The position numbers and the translations under genes are program-made. Shown in pieces: positions 40,097-63,274 of a stretch of 64,000 nucleotides of DNA; position 1 is the stretch's first letter, and each line of letters opens with the position of its first letter. This DNA comes from Longitalea luteola (GTDB lineage: Bacteria > Bacteroidota > Bacteroidia > Chitinophagales > Chitinophagaceae), in contig NZ_JAFIQX010000002.1 in the NCBI RefSeq assembly GCF_017356035.1, positions 744,001-808,000 on the forward strand. Direction: 5' to 3'. The notes under the pieces were generated by a model that was given only the letters and a program-made list of their open reading frames with translations, searched no databases and was not told the origin of the DNA.

Positions 40097-40154
40097 CAGG
40101 TTACAGGTTACAAGTTTCAGGGATCCTTGTAACCTGTAACTTGAAACCTGTAAC
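40097..40154. terminator. Word-repeat hairpin between convergent kynA and MFS genes
   Basis: GTTACAGGTTACAAG (40100-40114) pairs perfectly with CTTGTAACCTGTAAC (40126-40140), and a further copy TTGAAACCTGTAAC ends exactly at the MFS stop codon. An alternative pairing shifted by one word is possible. Probably a bidirectional terminator. Confidence 0.75.
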
Positions 40155-49117: not shown

Positions 49118-50233
49118 TTAGTTCGTTTGAATGTCTTTTACAGTGCTGTATTTTTCGAGATACTGCTGCAGGTCTTCGTCTGTTACATCGGCCAGCATGT
49201 CTTTCATATCACTCGCATCAATTTCATCTGCAGCGGTTGTAGCCGCTATTACTGTTTCTGACGGAGCAGGGGTTTGGTTCTCGAGGTACTTCTCCAGCAT
49301 TTCATCGCTGATATTATCGAGTTGGGCAGCCACAGCGGGGGCTGCTTTATCTGTTGTTTTATTACCATTGCCCAGGTACAACCAACCTGCAGTAATGATC
49401 AAACCAGCCATTACTGCGGCTGCGGCATACCGTAATACACGGCGGGTAAAGCGCATGGAAACAACTTTGGCTGGCTGCTGTGCTTTAACCGCTTTTAATA
49501 CCTGGCCAGGCAATTGTTCAAAATAACCTGCCGGTGCTTCATATACCTGTATTCTGTTTAAGCCTTTCATCAGGGGCGACAGGTTCTCCAATTCGCCGTT
49601 CACAAATTCAATGGCCTGTGCACCTGCTACTGCATTTTCTCCCAGCTCGTCGAAATAACCGGCCGGGGTGCTGAAAGGCATTTGTTTACCTATCTGACTC
49701 AACAGGGGCGATAATACTTCCAGTTCATCGCTTGCGTTATCAGCATCGGTTGTTTCAACGGGAAGAGCTGCTTCCCTTACGCGCTGCAGCATAGTGCTTG
49801 CAAACCCTTCAAAATATCCTTGCGGAACCTGGTAGGGATTGCTGTTAGCCTGTTGTAAAGCGGGTGAAAGAGCTGCTGCTTCTTCTTTTACCAGCTGCAA
49901 CATAGTGTTTGCAAACCCTGCAAAATATCCTTGCGGAACCCGGTAGGGATTGCTGTTAGCCTGTTGTAAAGCGGGTGAAAGAGCTGTTTCTTCTTCTTTT
50001 ACCAGCTGCAGCATAGTGTTTGCAAACCCTTCAAAATATCCTTGCGGAACCTGGTAAGGATTGGTTGTTTGTGGCAAAACAGGGGTACTGGCAGCCTTGG
50101 CCAGTTGCAAAAGCCTGTCAGCCAGCCCTTCAAAATACCCGGCAGGCACAACGTAGGGCGCCTGGGGGGTAATGTCAGCAACAGCCGGACTGATCTCCCT
50201 CAATTCTTTCAATATGATGTTCCTGTTTTCCAT
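49118..50233 (-). CDS. Probable anti-sigma membrane protein with six PxGYF modules
   Basis: 371 residues. Six modules of the type LSPxL...VPxGYFxGF...LLQxxK carry the PxGYF core at residues 30, 63, 100, 137, 190 and 234; the copies at 63, 100 and 137 are 37 residues apart and nearly identical. A single membrane helix (about 269-288) separates this cytoplasmic part from a periplasmic tail with two copies of a (S/T)DExLxxYLE motif. It follows the ECF sigma gene by 36 bases, so it probably holds that factor. A single PxxYF module is, from memory, usual in such Bacteroidota proteins; six is not. Confidence 0.78.
   Translation of the reverse strand: MENRNIILKELREISPAVADITPQAPYVVPAGYFEGLADRLLQLAKAASTPVLPQTTNPYQVPQGYFEGFANTMLQLVKEEETALSPALQQANSNPYRVPQGYFAGFANTMLQLVKEEAAALSPALQQANSNPYQVPQGYFEGFASTMLQRVREAALPVETTDADNASDELEVLSPLLSQIGKQMPFSTPAGYFDELGENAVAGAQAIEFVNGELENLSPLMKGLNRIQVYEAPAGYFEQLPGQVLKAVKAQQPAKVVSMRFTRRVLRYAAAAVMAGLIITAGWLYLGNGNKTTDKAAPAVAAQLDNISDEMLEKYLENQTPAPSETVIAATTAADEIDASDMKDMLADVTDEDLQQYLEKYSTVKDIQTN
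49811..50143. repeat. 111-bp direct repeats inside the anti-sigma-like gene
   Basis: Three copies begin at 49811, 49922 and 50033 (marker AAAATATCCTTGCGGAACC) and differ at only a few bases; the third is complete only in part. They encode the three central PxGYF modules, a sign of recent in-frame duplication. Confidence 0.88.
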
Positions 50234-55377: not shown

Positions 55378-56451
55378 TTAATGCGCAGCAGGATTGATGA
55401 ATTTCAGAACAAAATAAACCAGGGCGGCAAATAAGCCACTAACCGGAATGGTAAGGATCCATGCCCACAGCAGGTTGATGGAGATGCCCCAGCGCACTGC
55501 AGATAAGCGTTTGGTCATACCCACACCCATAATGGAACCTGCAATCGTGTGCGTTGTACTTACCGGAATACCCAGTCCCTGTGAAACGCCATATAAGGTT
55601 ACAGCGCCGGCTGTTTCTGCGGCTACGCCTTCAAGCGGAGTTACCTTGGTGATCTTGGTACCCATGGTCTTTACGATACGCCAGCCACCCATCATGGTAC
55701 CAAGGGCAATACAAACATAGCAGGTGATGGGGATCCATTGCGGCACATGTCCATAACTGGTTTTGCCGTTCGCATCTACTTTTTCTATTATCAGTGCCCA
55801 GTCAGGTATTGGTACACCATTTTTTACACACCAGGCGCCAAATACGACCATGGATGCGGTGATAATACCGATCACTTTTTGCGAATCGCTACCCCCGTGC
55901 CCGAGGCTGAAGGCGGCAGAGGATACCAACTGCAACCGCCGGAACCATTTATCTGCATGATAAGGATTGGCCTTCCGGCAGAGGTTCACGATGAGCACCG
56001 TGATCAAAAATGCGATGAACATACCAATAAAGGGCGCCAGGACAATAAATTTGACGGTATCAAAAATTACTTTCTGGTTAATAACATCGAAGCTGCCGGC
56101 GTGTGCCACCGCAGCGCCTGCAAAACCACCAATGAGGGTATGCGATGAGCTGGAAGGAATGCCAAACCACCAGGTAAGCAGGTTCCAGGCGATAGCGGCT
56201 ATGAGGCCCGCAAAGATCACATATAAATTAATGGAGTCGCTGTGTACGGTTTTGGCAACGGTGTTGGCTACTTTAAGATCGAAGATCCAGAAGGCTGCAA
56301 AATTGAAAACGGCTGCCCATACAACCGCCTGAAAAGGGGTGAGCACTTTGGTGGAAACAACGGTAGCTATGGAGTTGGCAGCGTCATGAAAACCATTGAT
56401 CAAATCGAAAGCCAGTCCGAGTATGATGATAATAACTATTAATGTAAACAT
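55378..56451 (-). CDS. pit: Inorganic phosphate transporter (Pit family)
   Basis: 357 residues with about ten membrane helices. The duplicated Pit signature is visible: DLINGFHDAANSIATVVSTK near the N-terminus and GVSQGLGIPVSTTHTIAGSI near the C-terminus, with WWFGIPSSSSHTLIGGFAG between them. It takes up metal phosphate with protons as the low-affinity system. It lies 35 bases after a DUF47 gene on the same strand, the standard Pit partner. No phosphate-type operator is seen upstream, as expected for a constitutive Pit. Confidence 0.95.
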   Translation of the reverse strand: MFTLIVIIIILGLAFDLINGFHDAANSIATVVSTKVLTPFQAVVWAAVFNFAAFWIFDLKVANTVAKTVHSDSINLYVIFAGLIAAIAWNLLTWWFGIPSSSSHTLIGGFAGAAVAHAGSFDVINQKVIFDTVKFIVLAPFIGMFIAFLITVLIVNLCRKANPYHADKWFRRLQLVSSAAFSLGHGGSDSQKVIGIITASMVVFGAWCVKNGVPIPDWALIIEKVDANGKTSYGHVPQWIPITCYVCIALGTMMGGWRIVKTMGTKITKVTPLEGVAAETAGAVTLYGVSQGLGIPVSTTHTIAGSIMGVGMTKRLSAVRWGISINLLWAWILTIPVSGLFAALVYFVLKFINPAAH

Positions 56452-56486: not shown

Positions 56487-57134
56487 TTACGCGTATTTAA
56501 TAATGATAGATTCGATCACATTACCGGCATCTTCGCATTTATCGGTTACTATTTCCATTACCTGATAAATTTCCCGCTTTTTGATAACCTCTTTGGCATC
56601 GGGTTCGGTTTCGAACAACCGGTCAATGCTTAGATCGAAAATATCATCTGCCTGGTTCTCAATGCTGTTTACTTTTACCAGGGCATCGGTAATCTGGCGC
56701 ATATCGCGCATATCGCGCAGCTGCAGTACGGCATTTTTAATTTGCTCGCAACCCTGATCAATGAGATCGGCCATTTTTTGAATGCCCTGATCGTTGGGAT
56801 TTACTTTGTAGAAATTGATCTTTTTGGCAGAAGCGAAAATATAGTCTGCAATATCATCCAGGGCGCTGGCCAGGTAGTGAATGTCTTCACGGTCGAAGGG
56901 TGTAATGAAATTTCTGCCGAGCTCAGTAAAGATCTTATGGGTGTAATCGTCATTTACATGCTCCAGGTCCTCAATTTGGGCAATCAAAGCAGCCCTTTTG
57001 TCGAAGTCCGGTTCTGTAACTACTTCCTTCATCACCTTACCCATTTTAGCCACAGTTTGGGCAACCTGTTCAAATAAGGAGTAGAATATCCTATCCTTCG
57101 GCATGAAAATCTTCATTATTGAGTTTAAGCCCAT
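56487..57134 (-). CDS. DUF47 (PhoU-like) protein, partner of Pit
   Basis: 215 residues, all helical and cytoplasmic, in the PhoU-like DUF47 family: DRIFYSLFEQVAQTVAKMG, EHVNDDYTHKIFTELGRNFI, TPFDREDIHYLASALDDIAD and the metal-binding-type EDAGNVIESIIIKYA end. DUF47 proteins accompany Pit transporters and modulate them. First gene of the two-gene unit with pit, with a -7 element just before the start. Confidence 0.92.
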   Translation of the reverse strand: MGLNSIMKIFMPKDRIFYSLFEQVAQTVAKMGKVMKEVVTEPDFDKRAALIAQIEDLEHVNDDYTHKIFTELGRNFITPFDREDIHYLASALDDIADYIFASAKKINFYKVNPNDQGIQKMADLIDQGCEQIKNAVLQLRDMRDMRQITDALVKVNSIENQADDIFDLSIDRLFETEPDAKEVIKKREIYQVMEIVTDKCEDAGNVIESIIIKYA

Positions 57135-57152: not shown

Positions 57153-57160
57153 CAAAAATA
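57153..57160 (-). promoter_or_regulatory. -7 element for the DUF47-pit operon
   Basis: TATTTTTG on the minus strand fits TAnnTTTG; the leader would be about 12 bases. No 11-bp half-site array faces in this direction. Confidence 0.5.
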
Positions 57161-57196: not shown

Positions 57197-57223
57197 GTAA
57201 TAATTACTTAACACAAAGATAAT
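57197..57223 (+). promoter_or_regulatory. Three 11-bp-spaced half-sites (distal porin operator)
   Basis: GTAAT, TTAAC and ATAAT start at 57197, 57208 and 57219, exactly 11 bases apart, with spacers AATTAC and ACAAAG. The third half-site plus spacer (ATAATATTGG) repeats one seen before the lipoprotein gene (61855). It is on the porin strand, 235 bases before its start. Confidence 0.45.
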
Positions 57224-57405
57224 ATTGGGCGCGAAATGCTGCTCGAATTGTTTAATGGGTTGATTACCAAATGCTAAATAATCAATTGATTCCCTAATGA
57301 CTATGGCCGCTGATGTAAGTGCGCTTTATTTCTGCTTTTCTTAATAAAAATATTATACCAGTATTTGCTGATTTACCGTATGCCGGTGGCCCTGGTTTTG
57401 AAGAA

Positions 57406-57432: not shown

Positions 57433-57457
57433 ATTGCCTCCCCAAAAAACCGGTATA

Positions 57458-58783
57458 ATGTCTCTTCCACGTTTAAAGTTGTTTTCTGGTTTACGTAAGC
57501 TTTTCATTCTGCTTTTTTTCCTTGGAAGTTCGTGTGTGTTGCAAGCTCAGTTCTTAACCCAAATGATCGACACCACTACCAATGTGGGGAGAGGTATTTT
57601 ACAGATGTATAAGAAATTCGATAGAATATATTTTACGGGTTATCTGCAACCCCAGTTCCAGGTTGCGCAACAAAAAGGCGCCGACAGCTGGAATGGGGGC
57701 GACTTTGCGCCGAAAGCCAACAGCCGGTTCATGCTTCGGCGCGGCCGCGTGCGGTTGGATTATGTGCGAATGAATAGTAATGAAGAGATCTCACTCTATT
57801 TTGCGTTCCAGTTTGATGGTACGGAACGAGGCGTGGTTATCCGTGATTTCTGGGGGCGTGTATTTGAAAACAAGTGGCATGTGCTTAATCTTACTACCGG
57901 GATGTTTGCCCGGCCCTTTGGTTACGAAGTGAACCTGAGCTCCGGCGACCGCGAAACGCCCGAACGTGGCCGGATGTCACAGATATTAATGAGAAATGAA
58001 CGCGACCTGGGTGCCATGATCTCCTTTGAGCCCCGCCGCAAGGATCATCCGTTGCGCAACCTGAAAGTAGACGCGGGCGTTTTCAATGGCCAGGGTTTAA
58101 CGGCCACCAGTGAATATGATTCTTACAAAGATTTTATCGCCCGCGCCGCCTGGCGGCCTTACCCGCTAAGCAAAGATTTCTTTATCTCTGGCGGTCTTTC
58201 TTATTTAAATGGTGGACTGTTTCAAAATACAAAATATACGTATGAAATAGCCAATGGCCACAATGGTAAACACTTTCTTGTAGATTCATCTGATGACAAC
58301 CTTGGCCGCAAAGCTCCCCGCCAGTATTATGGGGCCGATATGCAGTTAAAGTGGAAACCTAAAGACGGACTTGCTACCGAACTGCGGCTTGAGTACTGGA
58401 GGGGTACCCAGACTGCTTCCGCCGGTACCAGTGAAACACCTACTGCTTTGTTGGATGAGCCTTATTATGTTCGTCAATTCGATGGCGCGTTTATTTATTT
58501 CCTGCAGAATTTTACCAAACAACACCAGGTTGGTATTAAATACGATTGGTACGATCCGAACATTGAAGTGAAAGGCCGGGAAATTGGTGAGAGCGGCAAT
58601 AATTTGAATGCAACCGATATTAAATATTCTACCGTAACTGTCGGCTACAATTATATAGTGAATGAAAATGTACGCCTGATGTTATGGTATGACTTTATCA
58701 CCAATGAATCCACTTCCTTAGCCGGTTATACGGGCGATAAAAAGGATAATATTTTTACGGCCAGGCTTCAATTCAAGTTTTAA
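57458..58783 (+). CDS. Phosphate-selective porin (OprO/OprP family)
   Basis: 441 residues from ATG 57458. A signal peptide (LFILLFFLGSSCVLQAQ) is followed by the 16-strand porin domain: FTGYLQPQFQVAQQKGADSW, FMLRRGRVRLDYVRMNS, DFWGRVFENKWHVLNLTTGM, RDLGAMISFEP and a final aromatic strand FTARLQFKF. The family forms anion-selective channels in the outer membrane, induced at low phosphate in Pseudomonas. It is divergent from DUF47-pit and upstream of the TonB receptor, so the whole region deals with phosphate. Confidence 0.9.
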   Translation: MSLPRLKLFSGLRKLFILLFFLGSSCVLQAQFLTQMIDTTTNVGRGILQMYKKFDRIYFTGYLQPQFQVAQQKGADSWNGGDFAPKANSRFMLRRGRVRLDYVRMNSNEEISLYFAFQFDGTERGVVIRDFWGRVFENKWHVLNLTTGMFARPFGYEVNLSSGDRETPERGRMSQILMRNERDLGAMISFEPRRKDHPLRNLKVDAGVFNGQGLTATSEYDSYKDFIARAAWRPYPLSKDFFISGGLSYLNGGLFQNTKYTYEIANGHNGKHFLVDSSDDNLGRKAPRQYYGADMQLKWKPKDGLATELRLEYWRGTQTASAGTSETPTALLDEPYYVRQFDGAFIYFLQNFTKQHQVGIKYDWYDPNIEVKGREIGESGNNLNATDIKYSTVTVGYNYIVNENVRLMLWYDFITNESTSLAGYTGDKKDNIFTARLQFKF

Positions 58784-58864: not shown

Positions 58865-58913
58865 TTAATATTCGCGTAACGTTGCCGAAACATTCGCGTA
58901 ACGTTTGCTTAAC
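58865..58913 (+). promoter_or_regulatory. Five 11-bp-spaced half-sites (distal operator of the TonB receptor gene)
   Basis: TTAAT, GTAAC, GAAAC, GTAAC and TTAAC start at 58865, 58876, 58887, 58898 and 58909, all exactly 11 bases apart. The spacers are also similar (ATTCGC, GTTGCC, ATTCGC, GTTTGC), giving a visible direct repeat. The geometry is that of PhoB/OmpR-family binding sites. Confidence 0.7.
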
Positions 58914-58948
58914 ATTAAGGCCTTCAGAAGGCCCCTGATGCGGGTCAG

Positions 58949-58986
58949 TTAATAATTCCTTAACACAGGAGTAACATAGCGATAAC
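58949..58986 (+). promoter_or_regulatory. Four 11-bp-spaced half-sites (proximal operator of the TonB receptor gene)
   Basis: TTAAT, TTAAC, GTAAC and ATAAC start at 58949, 58960, 58971 and 58982. The array ends 10 bases before the -7 element, the place where a PhoB-type activator replaces a missing -33 box. Confidence 0.72.
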
Positions 58987-58996
58987 ACCTCCTGGA

Positions 58997-59004
58997 TACT
59001 TTTG
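58997..59004 (+). promoter_or_regulatory. -7 element of the TonB receptor gene
   Basis: TACTTTTG fits TAnnTTTG. There is no TTG at the -33 position, consistent with activation from the adjoining half-site array. It includes the TTG at 59002, which therefore cannot be the start codon. Confidence 0.65.
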
Positions 59005-59025: not shown

Positions 59026-61845
59026 GTGCGTAAAATTCTTGTTCTTACAATTATTAGTCTGCTCACTGTAACATTTACGTATGCCCAAACCGGTAAGATT
59101 GCCGGTAAAGTTGTGAATGAAAAGAATGAGCCGCTTAATGGAGTATCCATTAAGATCGATAACAATGCAACCGGTGGTGTTGCAACCGATGTGGAGGGGC
59201 GTTTCTTAATAAAACTGAATCCTGGTAAATATACCCTTACATTAACTTCTGTTGGTTATAATAATAAAACGGTTACTGATGTAGCGGTTGAAGCAAATGG
59301 TTTGCAGGAGCTGAACATTGTGATGCAGGCTGCCAGTAAAGAGCTGAAAGCGGTGGTAGTTAGCGTATCGGCAAGGCGGGAATCCGATTTCGCCCTGTTG
59401 AACATGCAGAAGAACAATGCCAGCATTTCTGATGGTATTTCTGCCGAATCCATTAAAAGATCACCCGATAAAAATACCGGGGAAGTATTAAAAAGGGTAA
59501 GCGGTACATCTATCCAGGACAATAAGTTTGTGATAGTGCGTGGTTTGATCGACAGATACAATGTGGCTACTATTAATAATGCCATGCTGCCCAGCACGGA
59601 GCCTGATAGAAGAGCCTTCTCGTTCGATATCATTCCTTCGAACCTGATAGATAATATCATGATCTATAAGACTGCCAATCCCGATCTGCCAGGTGATTTT
59701 GCAGGTGGTGTTGTACAGGTATCAACAAAGGATGTTCCCAGCCGCAATTTTCTAACGCTGGGTGCAGGCGCCAGTTATAATACGATCTCTACTTTTAAAG
59801 ATTTCAACCCCGGTTATGTAGCCGCCACCGATTATCTCGGTTTTGATGACGGCAGCCGCAAATTGCCCGATAATTTTCCTTCAAGAGGAAGATTTCAGGG
59901 TTCTACTTTTGAACAACGCGCTGAGTATTCAAAATTAATGAAGAATACGTACGGCGACCGCTATAATGCCAATGCATTACCCAACCAAAGCTATCAACTG
60001 AGCTGGGGCAAACGGTTCGACCTGAAGAACTCAGGCGTACTGGGTTCAATTCTTTCGCTTACTTACCGCAATAGCCAATCGATGGTAGAAGGTTCCAGAC
60101 AGGAATTCGACAACCAGTTCTCACAAGTGAGCGGTGCTGCTTATAATTACACTGATTCTACGTATAAATTCTCTACGAGCCTGGGCGCGTTATTGAACCT
60201 TTCCTATAAAAAAGGAAACACCAAGATCGCTTTCAAGAACCTGTTCAACCGTTTATTTGAAAACTCAAATATGATCAGGAACGGTATTCAATACTACAGT
60301 GGTTTTGCATCGATCTATGCCCAGGGGGGTGAAACTGTTGTAAAAACATTATACAGCACCCAGCTGGAAGGTGAGCATTCGATGAAGAACAAATCAAAGC
60401 TTACCTGGAACCTGAACTATGCATTGACCCTGCGTGACAATCCTGATTATAAATTCGCGCCTTTTATTAAAGATTCATCCAATGCCAATAAAGCAGATGT
60501 TCCTTATGAAGTGGTGTTGAGAGATACCTATCGTTTCTTTGCCAACCTCGAAGAACATGCAACAGGCGCCAATGTTAACTATTCCACACCATTCCGTTTG
60601 TTTGGCGACGATGCAAGCACCGTTAAATTCGGCTTGTTGACACAATACAAATTCCGCGAGTTCAATGCCCGCATTTTCCGGTACAACAGAGCACCTGGAA
60701 CCAACTTCAACGAAGGTTATTTAACCATGCCGGTTAAATATATTTTCCAGGATGCCAATATGAATACTGAAGGACTTGCCCTGGAGGAAATTACCAATAC
60801 CACTGATAAATACGATGCGAACTCATTGTTGAATGCCGGTTATGTTATGTTCGATAACCGACTGAACGATAAGTTCCGCCTGGTATGGGGTGTTCGTGTT
60901 GAGAATTTTGGATTTACAGTAAATACATCTGATTTCTCAGGCATGAAAGTGAAGGCTGATAAGAACTACCTCGACATCCTGCCTTCTGCGAACCTTACCT
61001 ATTCAATAACGCCCCGCACGAACCTGCGTTTTTCGGCCAGCCGTACGGTAAGCCGTCCTGAGTTCAGGGAAATTGCCAACTTCTCATTCTATGATTTCGT
61101 ACGCAACGTACAGGTGAGAGGTAATACCAAACTCGAAAGAAGCCAGAACACCAATGTAGATCTGCGCTTTGAAACATATCCTTCGAACGGTGAAGTGATC
61201 TCGGGTTCAGTGTTTGTTAAACATTTCAACAAACCGATTGAGTTACGGGTTGACCCCGGTTCCAATCCGCTGAACCTGGTGTTTGAATACTACAATGCAA
61301 AGTATGCGTTGAACTATGGTATAGAAGCCGAGATCAAAAAGCGGTTAAGCTTTTTAGGAAAACAGGAATGGCTTGAAGACCTGTTTGTGTTTGCCAATGC
61401 TGCCATCATTAAATCAAACGTAAACGTTGATGGTCTGGATGTAGCCGTTGCTGATAAGGACAGGCCTATGCAGGGACAATCACCCTATGTGATCAATGCC
61501 GGTTTAACATATGCCGGTGCTGGACGTACTTCTGCCAGTTTGTTGGTGAACAGAATTGGTCATCGTATTGAAGCGGTAGGTAACGATCCCAAAGGCTTAC
61601 CCGATATTTATGAGAATGGCAGAACGGTTATCGATATTCAGTTGAGCCAAAAGGTGCTGCGCAACAAGGGCGAGATCAAACTGAATATAGCGGACCTGTT
61701 GAATCAGAAATCTATCTTTTACCAGAACTACAGGATTGATACCGATAAAATTTCAAAACGTTCTTACAAAGCCAGCGAAGACCGTGTATGGGCCAGCAGC
61801 CGTTTTGGTTCAAGCATTGGTGTGAGCTTTTCGTATAACTTTTAA
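59026..61845 (+). CDS. TonB-dependent receptor with carboxypeptidase-like N-terminal domain
   Basis: 939 residues from GTG 59026, chosen because the -7 element covers the earlier TTG and because the signal peptide then starts cleanly (RKILVLTIISLLTVTFTYAQ). Residues about 22-100 form a carboxypeptidase-regulatory-like domain (GKVVNEKNEPLNGVSIKIDN); then a plug with VLKRVSGTSIQDNKFVIVRG and a large barrel ending in GSSIGVSFSYNF. No SusD homologue is next to it, so glycan uptake of the Sus type is unlikely. The operators upstream and the phosphate genes beside it suggest a phosphate-containing ligand. It is followed by a lipoprotein gene with a matching operator. Confidence 0.92.
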   Translation: MRKILVLTIISLLTVTFTYAQTGKIAGKVVNEKNEPLNGVSIKIDNNATGGVATDVEGRFLIKLNPGKYTLTLTSVGYNNKTVTDVAVEANGLQELNIVMQAASKELKAVVVSVSARRESDFALLNMQKNNASISDGISAESIKRSPDKNTGEVLKRVSGTSIQDNKFVIVRGLIDRYNVATINNAMLPSTEPDRRAFSFDIIPSNLIDNIMIYKTANPDLPGDFAGGVVQVSTKDVPSRNFLTLGAGASYNTISTFKDFNPGYVAATDYLGFDDGSRKLPDNFPSRGRFQGSTFEQRAEYSKLMKNTYGDRYNANALPNQSYQLSWGKRFDLKNSGVLGSILSLTYRNSQSMVEGSRQEFDNQFSQVSGAAYNYTDSTYKFSTSLGALLNLSYKKGNTKIAFKNLFNRLFENSNMIRNGIQYYSGFASIYAQGGETVVKTLYSTQLEGEHSMKNKSKLTWNLNYALTLRDNPDYKFAPFIKDSSNANKADVPYEVVLRDTYRFFANLEEHATGANVNYSTPFRLFGDDASTVKFGLLTQYKFREFNARIFRYNRAPGTNFNEGYLTMPVKYIFQDANMNTEGLALEEITNTTDKYDANSLLNAGYVMFDNRLNDKFRLVWGVRVENFGFTVNTSDFSGMKVKADKNYLDILPSANLTYSITPRTNLRFSASRTVSRPEFREIANFSFYDFVRNVQVRGNTKLERSQNTNVDLRFETYPSNGEVISGSVFVKHFNKPIELRVDPGSNPLNLVFEYYNAKYALNYGIEAEIKKRLSFLGKQEWLEDLFVFANAAIIKSNVNVDGLDVAVADKDRPMQGQSPYVINAGLTYAGAGRTSASLLVNRIGHRIEAVGNDPKGLPDIYENGRTVIDIQLSQKVLRNKGEIKLNIADLLNQKSIFYQNYRIDTDKISKRSYKASEDRVWASSRFGSSIGVSFSYNF

Positions 61846-61854
61846 TTGCCAAAC

Positions 61855-61892
61855 ATAATATTGGCTTAACTGATAGTTAATATTCCCTTAAT
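61855..61892 (+). promoter_or_regulatory. Four 11-bp-spaced half-sites before the lipoprotein gene
   Basis: ATAAT, TTAAC, TTAAT and TTAAT start at 61855, 61866, 61877 and 61888. As at the TonB receptor gene, the array ends 10 bases before the -7 element, an identical spacing in two independent genes. Confidence 0.72.
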
Positions 61893-61902
61893 GCAGGGGG
61901 CT

Positions 61903-61910
61903 GACTTTTG
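61903..61910 (+). promoter_or_regulatory. -7 element of the lipoprotein gene
   Basis: GACTTTTG differs from TAnnTTTG at the first base only. The leader to ATG 61937 would be about 20 bases. Confidence 0.5.
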
Positions 61911-61936
61911 CACAAATTAAACACGAAATAATTTTT

Positions 61937-63274
61937 ATGATGCACAAAAAATTCCTGACCATGTTTGCAGTAGCCGCTCTTCTGGTTGCTACAGGATGCT
62001 CAAAGTCTGACGATGATGATGAAGACGGTGGAACACCTCCTCCAAACACTACGCTTCAGGGAACCCTAACCGAAAACAGAACGTTGACCGCTGACAAAAA
62101 GTGGACATTAAAAGGATATGTATATGTACCGGACGGTATTACCCTCACTATTGAGCCTGGTACTGTAATTGTAGGTGATGATTCAGTTAAAGCCGCTTTA
62201 TGCGTTGAAAGAGGTGGTAAACTGATCGCGAATGGTACTGCCGAAAAACCAATCGTATTCACTTCTGAAAAACCTGCCGGCCAACGCGCTCCTGGCGACT
62301 GGGGTGGTATTGTGCTGTTGGGTAAAGCAAAAACCAACCGTACTGCTACACCGGTAATTGAAGGAGGTCTCGACCGTCCTTACGGTGGTTCTAATGATGC
62401 CGATAATTCCGGTTCCTTAAAATATGTTAGAATTGAATTTGCCGGTATTGCTGCCTTCCCCGGTAGTGAGATCAACGGCTTAACGCTGGGTGGTGTAGGT
62501 AGCGGAACTACCCTGGAGAACATCCAGGTTTCTTATGGAAACGACGATGGTTATGAGTTCTTTGGCGGTACTGTAAACGGAAAACGCCTGATCTCTTACG
62601 CCTGCTCTGATGATGATTTTGACTTTGACTTCGGCTTTACCGGAAAGATCCAGTACGGTGTAGTGATCAAAGATCCTAATACAGTGGATAACGGCGATGA
62701 CAACAATGGTATTGAGTGCGATAACGACGGTAACAGCGGACTGCTGGAGCCTTTCACCCGTCCGAACCTGTCGAATTTCACTTTTGTTGGACCTAACAAC
62801 GCTTCTACCAACGTACGTCATAAATATGGCAACCGCTTTAGAAGAGCTACCCGTTTTTCTTTGCGTAACTCCATCATCATGGGTTATAACCAGGGCGGTT
62901 TTGTAGTAGAATCTGATGCAACCGTAACCGCTTATAAAGACAATCTTTCTGCATTTAAAAATAACCTGGTACACGCTGTTGCAAATCCTTACCTGAGCAC
63001 TTCAGCAGGTGTTATGACAAGTGCTGCCGTGCAGGCCAAAGCTGAATCAGAAGGTTCTGTTACTTATACCAACCCTGCTGATATCAAACTGAAAAGTCCG
63101 TTCACCATTGCCAATCCTGATCTAACGCCTGAAACAGGTTCACCTGCTCTTACCGGCGCAAGCTTTACCGACATGGATTCATTCTTTGAAACTGTTACAT
63201 TCAGAGGTGCTGTTGGTACAACCAACTGGTTAACCGGCTGGACAAGCTTCTCGCCCAAAACAAATAATTACTAA
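61937..63274 (+). CDS. Surface-type lipoprotein with beta-helix-like body
   Basis: 445 residues; ATG 61940 is an equal alternative. The lipobox VATGC makes C21 the lipidated residue, followed by SKSDDDDEDG, an acidic stretch of the type that sends lipoproteins to the cell surface in Bacteroidota. The body has right-handed beta-helix character: GYVYVPDGITLTIEPGTVIV, VERGGKLIANGTAEKPIVFT, DWGGIVLLGKA and NGLTLGGVGSGTTLENIQVS, with Asp/Asn-rich loops (DDDFDFDFG, DNGDDNNGIECDND) that could bind calcium. No enzyme motif is recognised. It shares its operator type with the TonB receptor gene before it, so it may be the receptor's surface partner for a phosphorus compound; this is inference. Confidence 0.82.
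   Translation: MMHKKFLTMFAVAALLVATGCSKSDDDDEDGGTPPPNTTLQGTLTENRTLTADKKWTLKGYVYVPDGITLTIEPGTVIVGDDSVKAALCVERGGKLIANGTAEKPIVFTSEKPAGQRAPGDWGGIVLLGKAKTNRTATPVIEGGLDRPYGGSNDADNSGSLKYVRIEFAGIAAFPGSEINGLTLGGVGSGTTLENIQVSYGNDDGYEFFGGTVNGKRLISYACSDDDFDFDFGFTGKIQYGVVIKDPNTVDNGDDNNGIECDNDGNSGLLEPFTRPNLSNFTFVGPNNASTNVRHKYGNRFRRATRFSLRNSIIMGYNQGGFVVESDATVTAYKDNLSAFKNNLVHAVANPYLSTSAGVMTSAAVQAKAESEGSVTYTNPADIKLKSPFTIANPDLTPETGSPALTGASFTDMDSFFETVTFRGAVGTTNWLTGWTSFSPKTNNY

Follow-up and report, generated by a model that had tools for sequence, protein, structure and literature searches.

A TonB-dependent receptor gene at the end of the 64,000-nt stretch analyzed here (the window), from the genome of the soil bacterium Longitalea luteola, is preceded by two arrays of 11-nt direct repeats. 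Together with a third array before the adjoining lipoprotein-like gene, these are very probably PHO boxes of a Bacteroidota kind, through which phosphorylated PhoB would activate both the receptor and the lipoprotein gene at low phosphate. The repeats with their spacing and promoter placement, their conservation, and the association with phosphate-type genes and phoBR are read directly from the DNA.

Array 1 (58865-58919, + strand) consists of five 11-nt direct repeats with PHO-box-like half-sites, in order TTAATATTCGC, GTAACGTTGCC, GAAACATTCGC, GTAACGTTTGC and TTAACATTAAG, and Array 2 (58949-58992, + strand), which adjoins the promoter, consists of four, TTAATAATTCC, TTAACACAGGA, GTAACATAGCG and ATAACACCTCC. 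Direct reading confirmed the nine half-sites in two arrays at exact 11-bp spacing given by the preliminary description, far above shuffled chance; the core of its half-site also holds, but the real half-site is longer than claimed, roughly (T/G)TAAC(A/G)TT. The step from the last unit of Array 1 to the first unit of Array 2 is 40 bp, no multiple of 11. The last TAAC of Array 2 occupies 58983-58986, and the -7 element TACTTTTG (TAnnTTTG; 58997-59004, + strand, by direct reading) begins ten bases after it, so that 18 bp separate the start of this TAAC, at about -28, from the TTTG. The -33 place of the receptor promoter reads AGTAACATAGC (58970-58980) without a TTG, which bears out the earlier claim of a -7 element that lacks a -33 box. 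The receptor (59026-61845, + strand), containing plug and barrel domains and a carboxypeptidase-like N-terminus, probably starts at GTG 59026, because the start of the longer open reading frame, TTG 59002, falls inside the -7 element.

Four TAAY units at 11-bp spacing occur twice in the window as exact matches, where 100 shuffles gave a mean of 0.00; with one mismatch allowed they occur four times, against 0.05. When periods 6-21 were compared on both strands at a threshold of 15 of 16 for a 4-unit TAAC score, the window yielded two matches at period 11 (58877 and 58950) and a single period-7 repeat at 40130. The second exact TAAY match is Array 3 (61855-61898, + strand; ATAATATTGGC, TTAACTGATAG, TTAATATTCCC and TTAATGCAGGG), between the receptor and the lipoprotein gene, where the start of the last TAAT lies 18 bp before the TTTG of a -7-like element, GACTTTTG (61903-61910, + strand). 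The two arrays first described thus stand, but this third one had been overlooked. With five, four and four units, the arrays have the at least two head-to-tail 11-nt direct repeats expected of a PHO box. Against a profile (R1) trained on 28 promoters of other genomes, Array 2 is the best match in the genome (E 9.5e-13), Array 1 scores E 0.006 and Array 3 matches weakly (E 0.13).

The end of the window forms a phosphate locus, comprising a Pit-type (PHO4) phosphate transporter (55378-56451, - strand; E 2.2e-87), a PhoU_div (DUF47) protein (56487-57134, - strand), a Porin_O_P-type outer-membrane porin (57434-58783, + strand; PF07396, E 1.8e-5), the receptor and the lipoprotein-like protein (61937-63274, + strand), which by its place resembles the Pi-induced FII lipoprotein of Flavobacterium johnsoniae. 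The lipoprotein-like product has no Pfam match and no PDB sequence match, and an AlphaFold model made as a beta-helix test (pLDDT 29.5, 3 sequences) was set aside. Between the divergent phoU_div-pit and porin genes lies Array 4 (57198-57228, + strand), three repeats with a weak profile match (E 0.14) that are identical here and in seven of eight genus relatives and carry one change in the eighth. The sequence of a putative -7 element of phoU_div-pit, TATTTTTG (57153-57160, - strand), is present here and in all eight relatives. Array 4 also overlaps a minus-strand TATCTTTG, and from this sequence it could repress a second pit promoter. Elsewhere in the window, a 111-bp tandem repeat (49783-50063) lies inside a 371-aa open reading frame (49118-50233, - strand), which adjoins a frame that, judged by eye, may encode a sigma factor; no Rfam family reaches its gathering threshold in the window.

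Past the window, the next 14 kb (C22:808001-822000, referred to as L090) encode a glycosyltransferase, a plcP-like phosphoesterase, a DUF5690 protein and a histidine kinase with a response regulator. This gene order is kept in all eight genus relatives sampled, with DUF5690 reduced to a fragment in one. The plcP array is present in all nine genus genomes, at scores of 14-15 of 16. The DUF5690 gene has a weaker conserved array (L090:3999-4051, + strand; 12-13 of 16) with TA(T/C)CTTAG in eight of the nine genus genomes, and this gene of unknown function may be phosphate-regulated. A search of the genome with a PstC model found none, while the same model was positive in 14 of 14 control genomes; an array at a pst gene could therefore not be expected in this genome. 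In the relative G071, the receptor and the lipoprotein are only 42% and 44% identical to those here, versus 97% for Pit and 99.6% for PhoB, and Array 2 is the same; from this comparison (window 59026-63274 against loci L066 and L246), the receptor-lipoprotein pair seems to have been swapped between close species under a retained operator.

The arrangement recurs upstream of receptor homologues. A search of 59 genomes, our own included, supplied the 30 best receptor matches. In their promoters the mean best 4-unit TAAC score is 14.0 of 16 at period 11, compared with 9.5-10.1 for the remaining periods between 6 and 17; a score of at least 14 is reached by 21 of the 30 at period 11 and by none at another period. 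In the 25 best by combined score, with distances of 16 to 21 bp allowed, the last TAAC stands 18 bp before TTTG in 23 promoters, 18 bp before TTTA in one and 16 bp before TTTG in the remaining one. The arrays thus keep the fixed place of a PHO box that takes over the -35/-33 region (18 bp in 24 of the 25 best, no TTG at -33), at promoters that are predicted. Most parsed receptor promoters carry runs of four to seven units; in several other genera these form one run of six or seven before the receptor, and the 40-bp step between Arrays 1 and 2 is found again in the genus loci where both were parsed. Spacing to TTTG is constant across genera, while the gaps vary.

A loose pattern of four TAAC units with up to two mismatches, which matched the own genome 16 times versus 11 for the reversed control, was rejected for use alone as too loose. 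The exact pattern at 11 bp is found in 24 of 147 family genomes, versus 7 of 147 for its reverse, and by sites 59 times versus 41, both of these site counts being swollen by tandem repeats in G106, G074 and G049. On contig C1 of G106, tandem arrays with this same 11-bp period are numerous, their unit resembling TAACTCTCAGA. The 28 exact-pattern loci that we read, two of G106 being left out, lie upstream of dnaB (6), receptor homologues (3), a second receptor-like family with OMP barrel and CarboxypepD_reg domains (3), SusC-like receptors (2), a homologue of the window lipoprotein (1), an L028-type protein without Pfam match (1) and other genes or no open reading frame (12). TTTG, which the pattern search had ignored, was looked for at nine of the loci that had been selected for their outer-membrane-type genes; it stands at 18 bp in six but not in the other three. 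The dnaB loci show no TTTG at the 18-bp place.

R1 contains TTTG at a fixed distance, which makes that distance in its matches not independent. Its E-values are approximate, and the filters applied when more than 40 genomes are scanned cost weak matches. In the own genome, where 150 of 2804 first-look candidates were scored, R1 gave 18 matches at E up to 10. Seven of them, strong and weak (E 9.5e-13 to 0.79), fall within about 11 kb (C22:801198-812051), at both receptor arrays, the lipoprotein gene, the pit/porin intergenic region, the promoter of a candidate small RNA (see below), DUF5690 and plcP. The second best of the 18, and the best outside the locus, precedes a PhoX-family phosphatase gene (E 2.9e-6; PF05787, E 2e-9), and the third best precedes dnaB. 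The expectation that such arrays would lead through the genome to phosphate genes therefore held for the pit/phoU_div/porin/receptor/lipoprotein/plcP/phoR-phoB neighborhood and for phoX, but not for phoB itself, the upstream region of which has a best 4-unit score of 9-12 of 16 in nine genomes, with no array and no sign of autoregulation.

Across the family, with an E-value limit of 0.001, R1 yielded 91 matches. They fall in 52 of the 60 genomes, our own included; the other eight have none, even though all 60 carry a PhoB match. When 15 rows at training promoters and Array 2 of the own genome are set aside, 75 rows remain, from 47 genomes, and two of these rows (phoX and dnaB) belong to the own genome. 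The 75 precede 21 receptor homologues (seven of them less than 34% identical), 10 members of the second receptor-like family, 9 lipoprotein homologues, 7 L028-type genes, 6 plcP, 2 phoX, 2 dnaB, 1 porin, 1 glycosyltransferase, 1 SusC-like gene, 12 other genes and 3 places with no open reading frame. Receptor genes are common in such genomes, and receptor matches alone prove little. The downstream genes were classed with 18 reference proteins, of which those for the receptor, lipoprotein, plcP, porin and glycosyltransferase come from the locus itself, while the second receptor-like, L028, SusC-like, phoX and dnaB references come partly from array matches, making those counts partly circular. 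Two of the 12 other genes match Pfam models of the alkaline-phosphatase superfamily. A "porin" label for the L028-type protein was dropped, as it has no Pfam porin match and no BLAST match to the porin of the window. Of the 91 matches, 21, spread over 14 genomes, have phoB within 40 kb, against a rough random expectation of 1 to 2.

In a phylum sample of 118 genomes, our own included, 40 have an R1 match and 78 have none, and 46 of the 56 rows fall outside the family. The 26 outside rows that were read comprise 12 receptor homologues, 3 porin homologues (one weak, E 5e-6), 1 lipoprotein homologue, 1 L028-type protein (25% identity), 4 unclassified genes and five phosphate genes, namely pstS in 3 cases (one 337 bp away), pstC in 1 and phoU in 1, each over its NCBIfam cut-off. 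R1 was trained on no pst or phoU promoter, and at the level of sequence these matches from outside the training set are the strongest evidence for PhoB. By sequence, then, the arrays mark genes of the kind that PHO boxes regulate (phoX, plcP, pstS, pstC, phoU and the receptor type). PhoB-like control of the receptor, which the preliminary description had proposed, is supported by this link to phosphate genes here, in relatives (receptor, lipoprotein, plcP) and farther out (pstS, pstC, phoU).

A candidate for the regulator sits close by, in a PhoB-PhoR-like pair located 7-9 kb past the end of the window. The regulator (L090:8144-8821) has a receiver and an OmpR-type DNA-binding domain, as expected of a PhoB, and adjoins a HisKA kinase. 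The genome holds 11 OmpR-type DNA-binding domains, and among the nine proteins run against NCBIfam, PhoB models come out on top for just this one. Its two top models, TIGR02154 and NF053854, nevertheless score below their cut-offs (235 versus 296 bits and 222 versus 270, respectively), and the adjoining kinase likewise scores under the NCBIfam cut-offs; we therefore call the regulator PhoB-like by best match and neighborhood. OmpR-family regulators commonly bind tandem repeats, and another member of this family in the genome might use the arrays, the phosphate link then being indirect. In keeping with this, the NCBIfam comparison covered nine of the 11 domain-bearing candidates, and the half-sites are unlike the E. 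coli CTGTCAT. However, array targets elsewhere include pst and phoU, clustering of the arrays with phoBR is seen in 13 genomes besides this one, and a single PhoB match with an E-value of 1e-55 or better is present in every one of the 60 family genomes, so that we regard another OmpR-type regulator as unlikely. The last count makes the co-occurrence of PhoB and arrays uninformative as a test, since all 60 genomes have a PhoB match.

Comparison with known systems places the arrays most probably among PHO boxes. In E. coli and other bacteria, PhoB/PhoP binds PHO boxes, which stand upstream of phosphate genes and consist of 11-nt direct repeats in head-to-tail order, as here, and the consensus differs between species (review PMC4415409, as available in part). 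The half-site here, about TTAAC(A/G)TT, is not the E. coli CTGTCAT, a difference that is not defining since the consensus varies (PMC4415409), and the arrays here are tied to a Bacteroidota -7 element at 18 bp. Within the phylum, the Riemerella anatipestifer PhoP motif obtained by DAP-seq has TTTAACA as its most conserved core, shared with the arrays here, and EMSA experiments with PhoP were reported for a TonB receptor promoter and for dnaG; however, the available part of that account names no 11-bp array or fixed promoter distance, calls the motif ArcA-like and does not focus on phosphate control (PMC9603813). The F. johnsoniae PhoBR operon (PUSIV) likewise groups an OprP porin, PhoR, PhoB, a TonB receptor and an FII lipoprotein; its receptor and lipoprotein beside phoBR respond to Pi depletion with FC of 8.0 and 9.9, which we interpret as log2, and its porin is not induced (PMC8115612, in the part available). 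No operator is described there, the terms "pho box" and "promoter" being absent from the main text (PMC8115612). The Bacteroides fragilis PhoB of the PhoRB pair binds the pstC promoter region in EMSA, but the paper defines no site, and "consensus" and "motif" are absent from its main text (PMC3547664, in the part available). In the open-licence literature, a scope that leaves most subscription papers outside, we found no defined PHO box for Bacteroidota, the nearest being the Riemerella PhoP motif.

Tandem 11-nt repeats, a last unit at the -33 place and the lack of a visible -33 element together make an anatomy that fits PhoB-type activation. We infer PhoB binding, activation and a low-phosphate signal as follows. 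When phosphate is short, the phoB-phoR-like pair would supply phosphorylated PhoB, of which one molecule would occupy each 11-nt repeat in head-to-tail order; the last PhoB, at about -28, would substitute for the missing -33 element in contacting RNA polymerase and thereby switch on the receptor gene, and Array 3 would act likewise for the downstream lipoprotein gene. The low-phosphate link is drawn because the F. johnsoniae receptor and lipoprotein beside phoBR respond to Pi depletion, and the pair here is equated with that pair by domains and gene order. OmpR-type regulators can also repress, and the dnaB arrays stand downstream of a presumed promoter; yet a placement at about -28 to -61 without a -33 element suits activation, and the F. 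johnsoniae counterpart is induced, which makes repressor sites on the receptor very improbable. That the repeats are a simple tandem DNA repeat with no regulatory role is hardly credible, since, even if the repeats of G106 show that such DNA arises, the units here share little past the half-site, their distance to TTTG stays constant across genera as the gaps vary, and the operator is retained where the receptor is just 42% identical.

If the arrays are PhoB sites, two further targets come into view. The dnaB array (in the own genome at C33:298511-298554; L102/L003, with the relatives' loci L205-L217) starts 22-24 bp after a conserved TATATTCG, that is, at about +13 if TATATTCG is the -7 element. 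It is found in the 13 closest genomes, i.e., all ten of genus g1 (our own included) together with G002, G008 and G009, and is absent in the next 10 loci tested. Such a placing suggests a roadblock, by which the same regulator would repress the replicative helicase gene. Riemerella PhoP is reported to bind upstream of dnaG, another replication gene (PMC9603813, as available in part).

A candidate small RNA with its array (L090:1229-1376, + strand; RNA at L090:1281-1376) lies between the receptor and phoBR and is composed of the array, TACCTTGC, a 27-nt 5' part with a conserved GATTCCATTTTTCAATACCGTTCATGT and a terminator-like hairpin. The 5' part, with up to four mismatches, is present in seven of nine genus stretches and absent from those of G148 and G152. 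Three of the sequences, folded singly, gave z-scores of -3.8 to -4.4. Covariation in an RNAalifold consensus is not supportive, with one pair changed on both sides and the terminators misaligned by indels. No Rfam family matches at threshold, two sub-threshold Rfam matches around the RNA were taken as chance, and a search by 11-mers within the sampled stretches of the genome gave no clear target. The region may hold a small open reading frame instead. At another place (L105, C40:132120-132162, + strand), 2-3 units and TACATTTG at 18 bp are followed by a short stretch, a terminator-like hairpin and a T-run, a possible second small RNA as judged from its sequence. Tentatively, and as a reading that we hold to be possible rather than probable, PhoB in the host genus and its near relatives may block dnaB through the array at about +13 to +50 and drive the small RNA of about 90 nt.

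Collectively, the half-site, the period and the 18-bp distance to TTTG make a usable definition, by which the phosphate regulon of root and soil Bacteroidota would become readable from DNA; in many relatives, too, phosphate genes are marked by arrays of this sort. Pi-induced receptors, such as that of F. johnsoniae, thereby gain a likely kind of switch. The arrays also predict targets that would hardly be looked for otherwise, such as dnaB and a small RNA, and if these predictions are true, phosphate shortage would have a direct connection with chromosome replication and with control at the RNA level.
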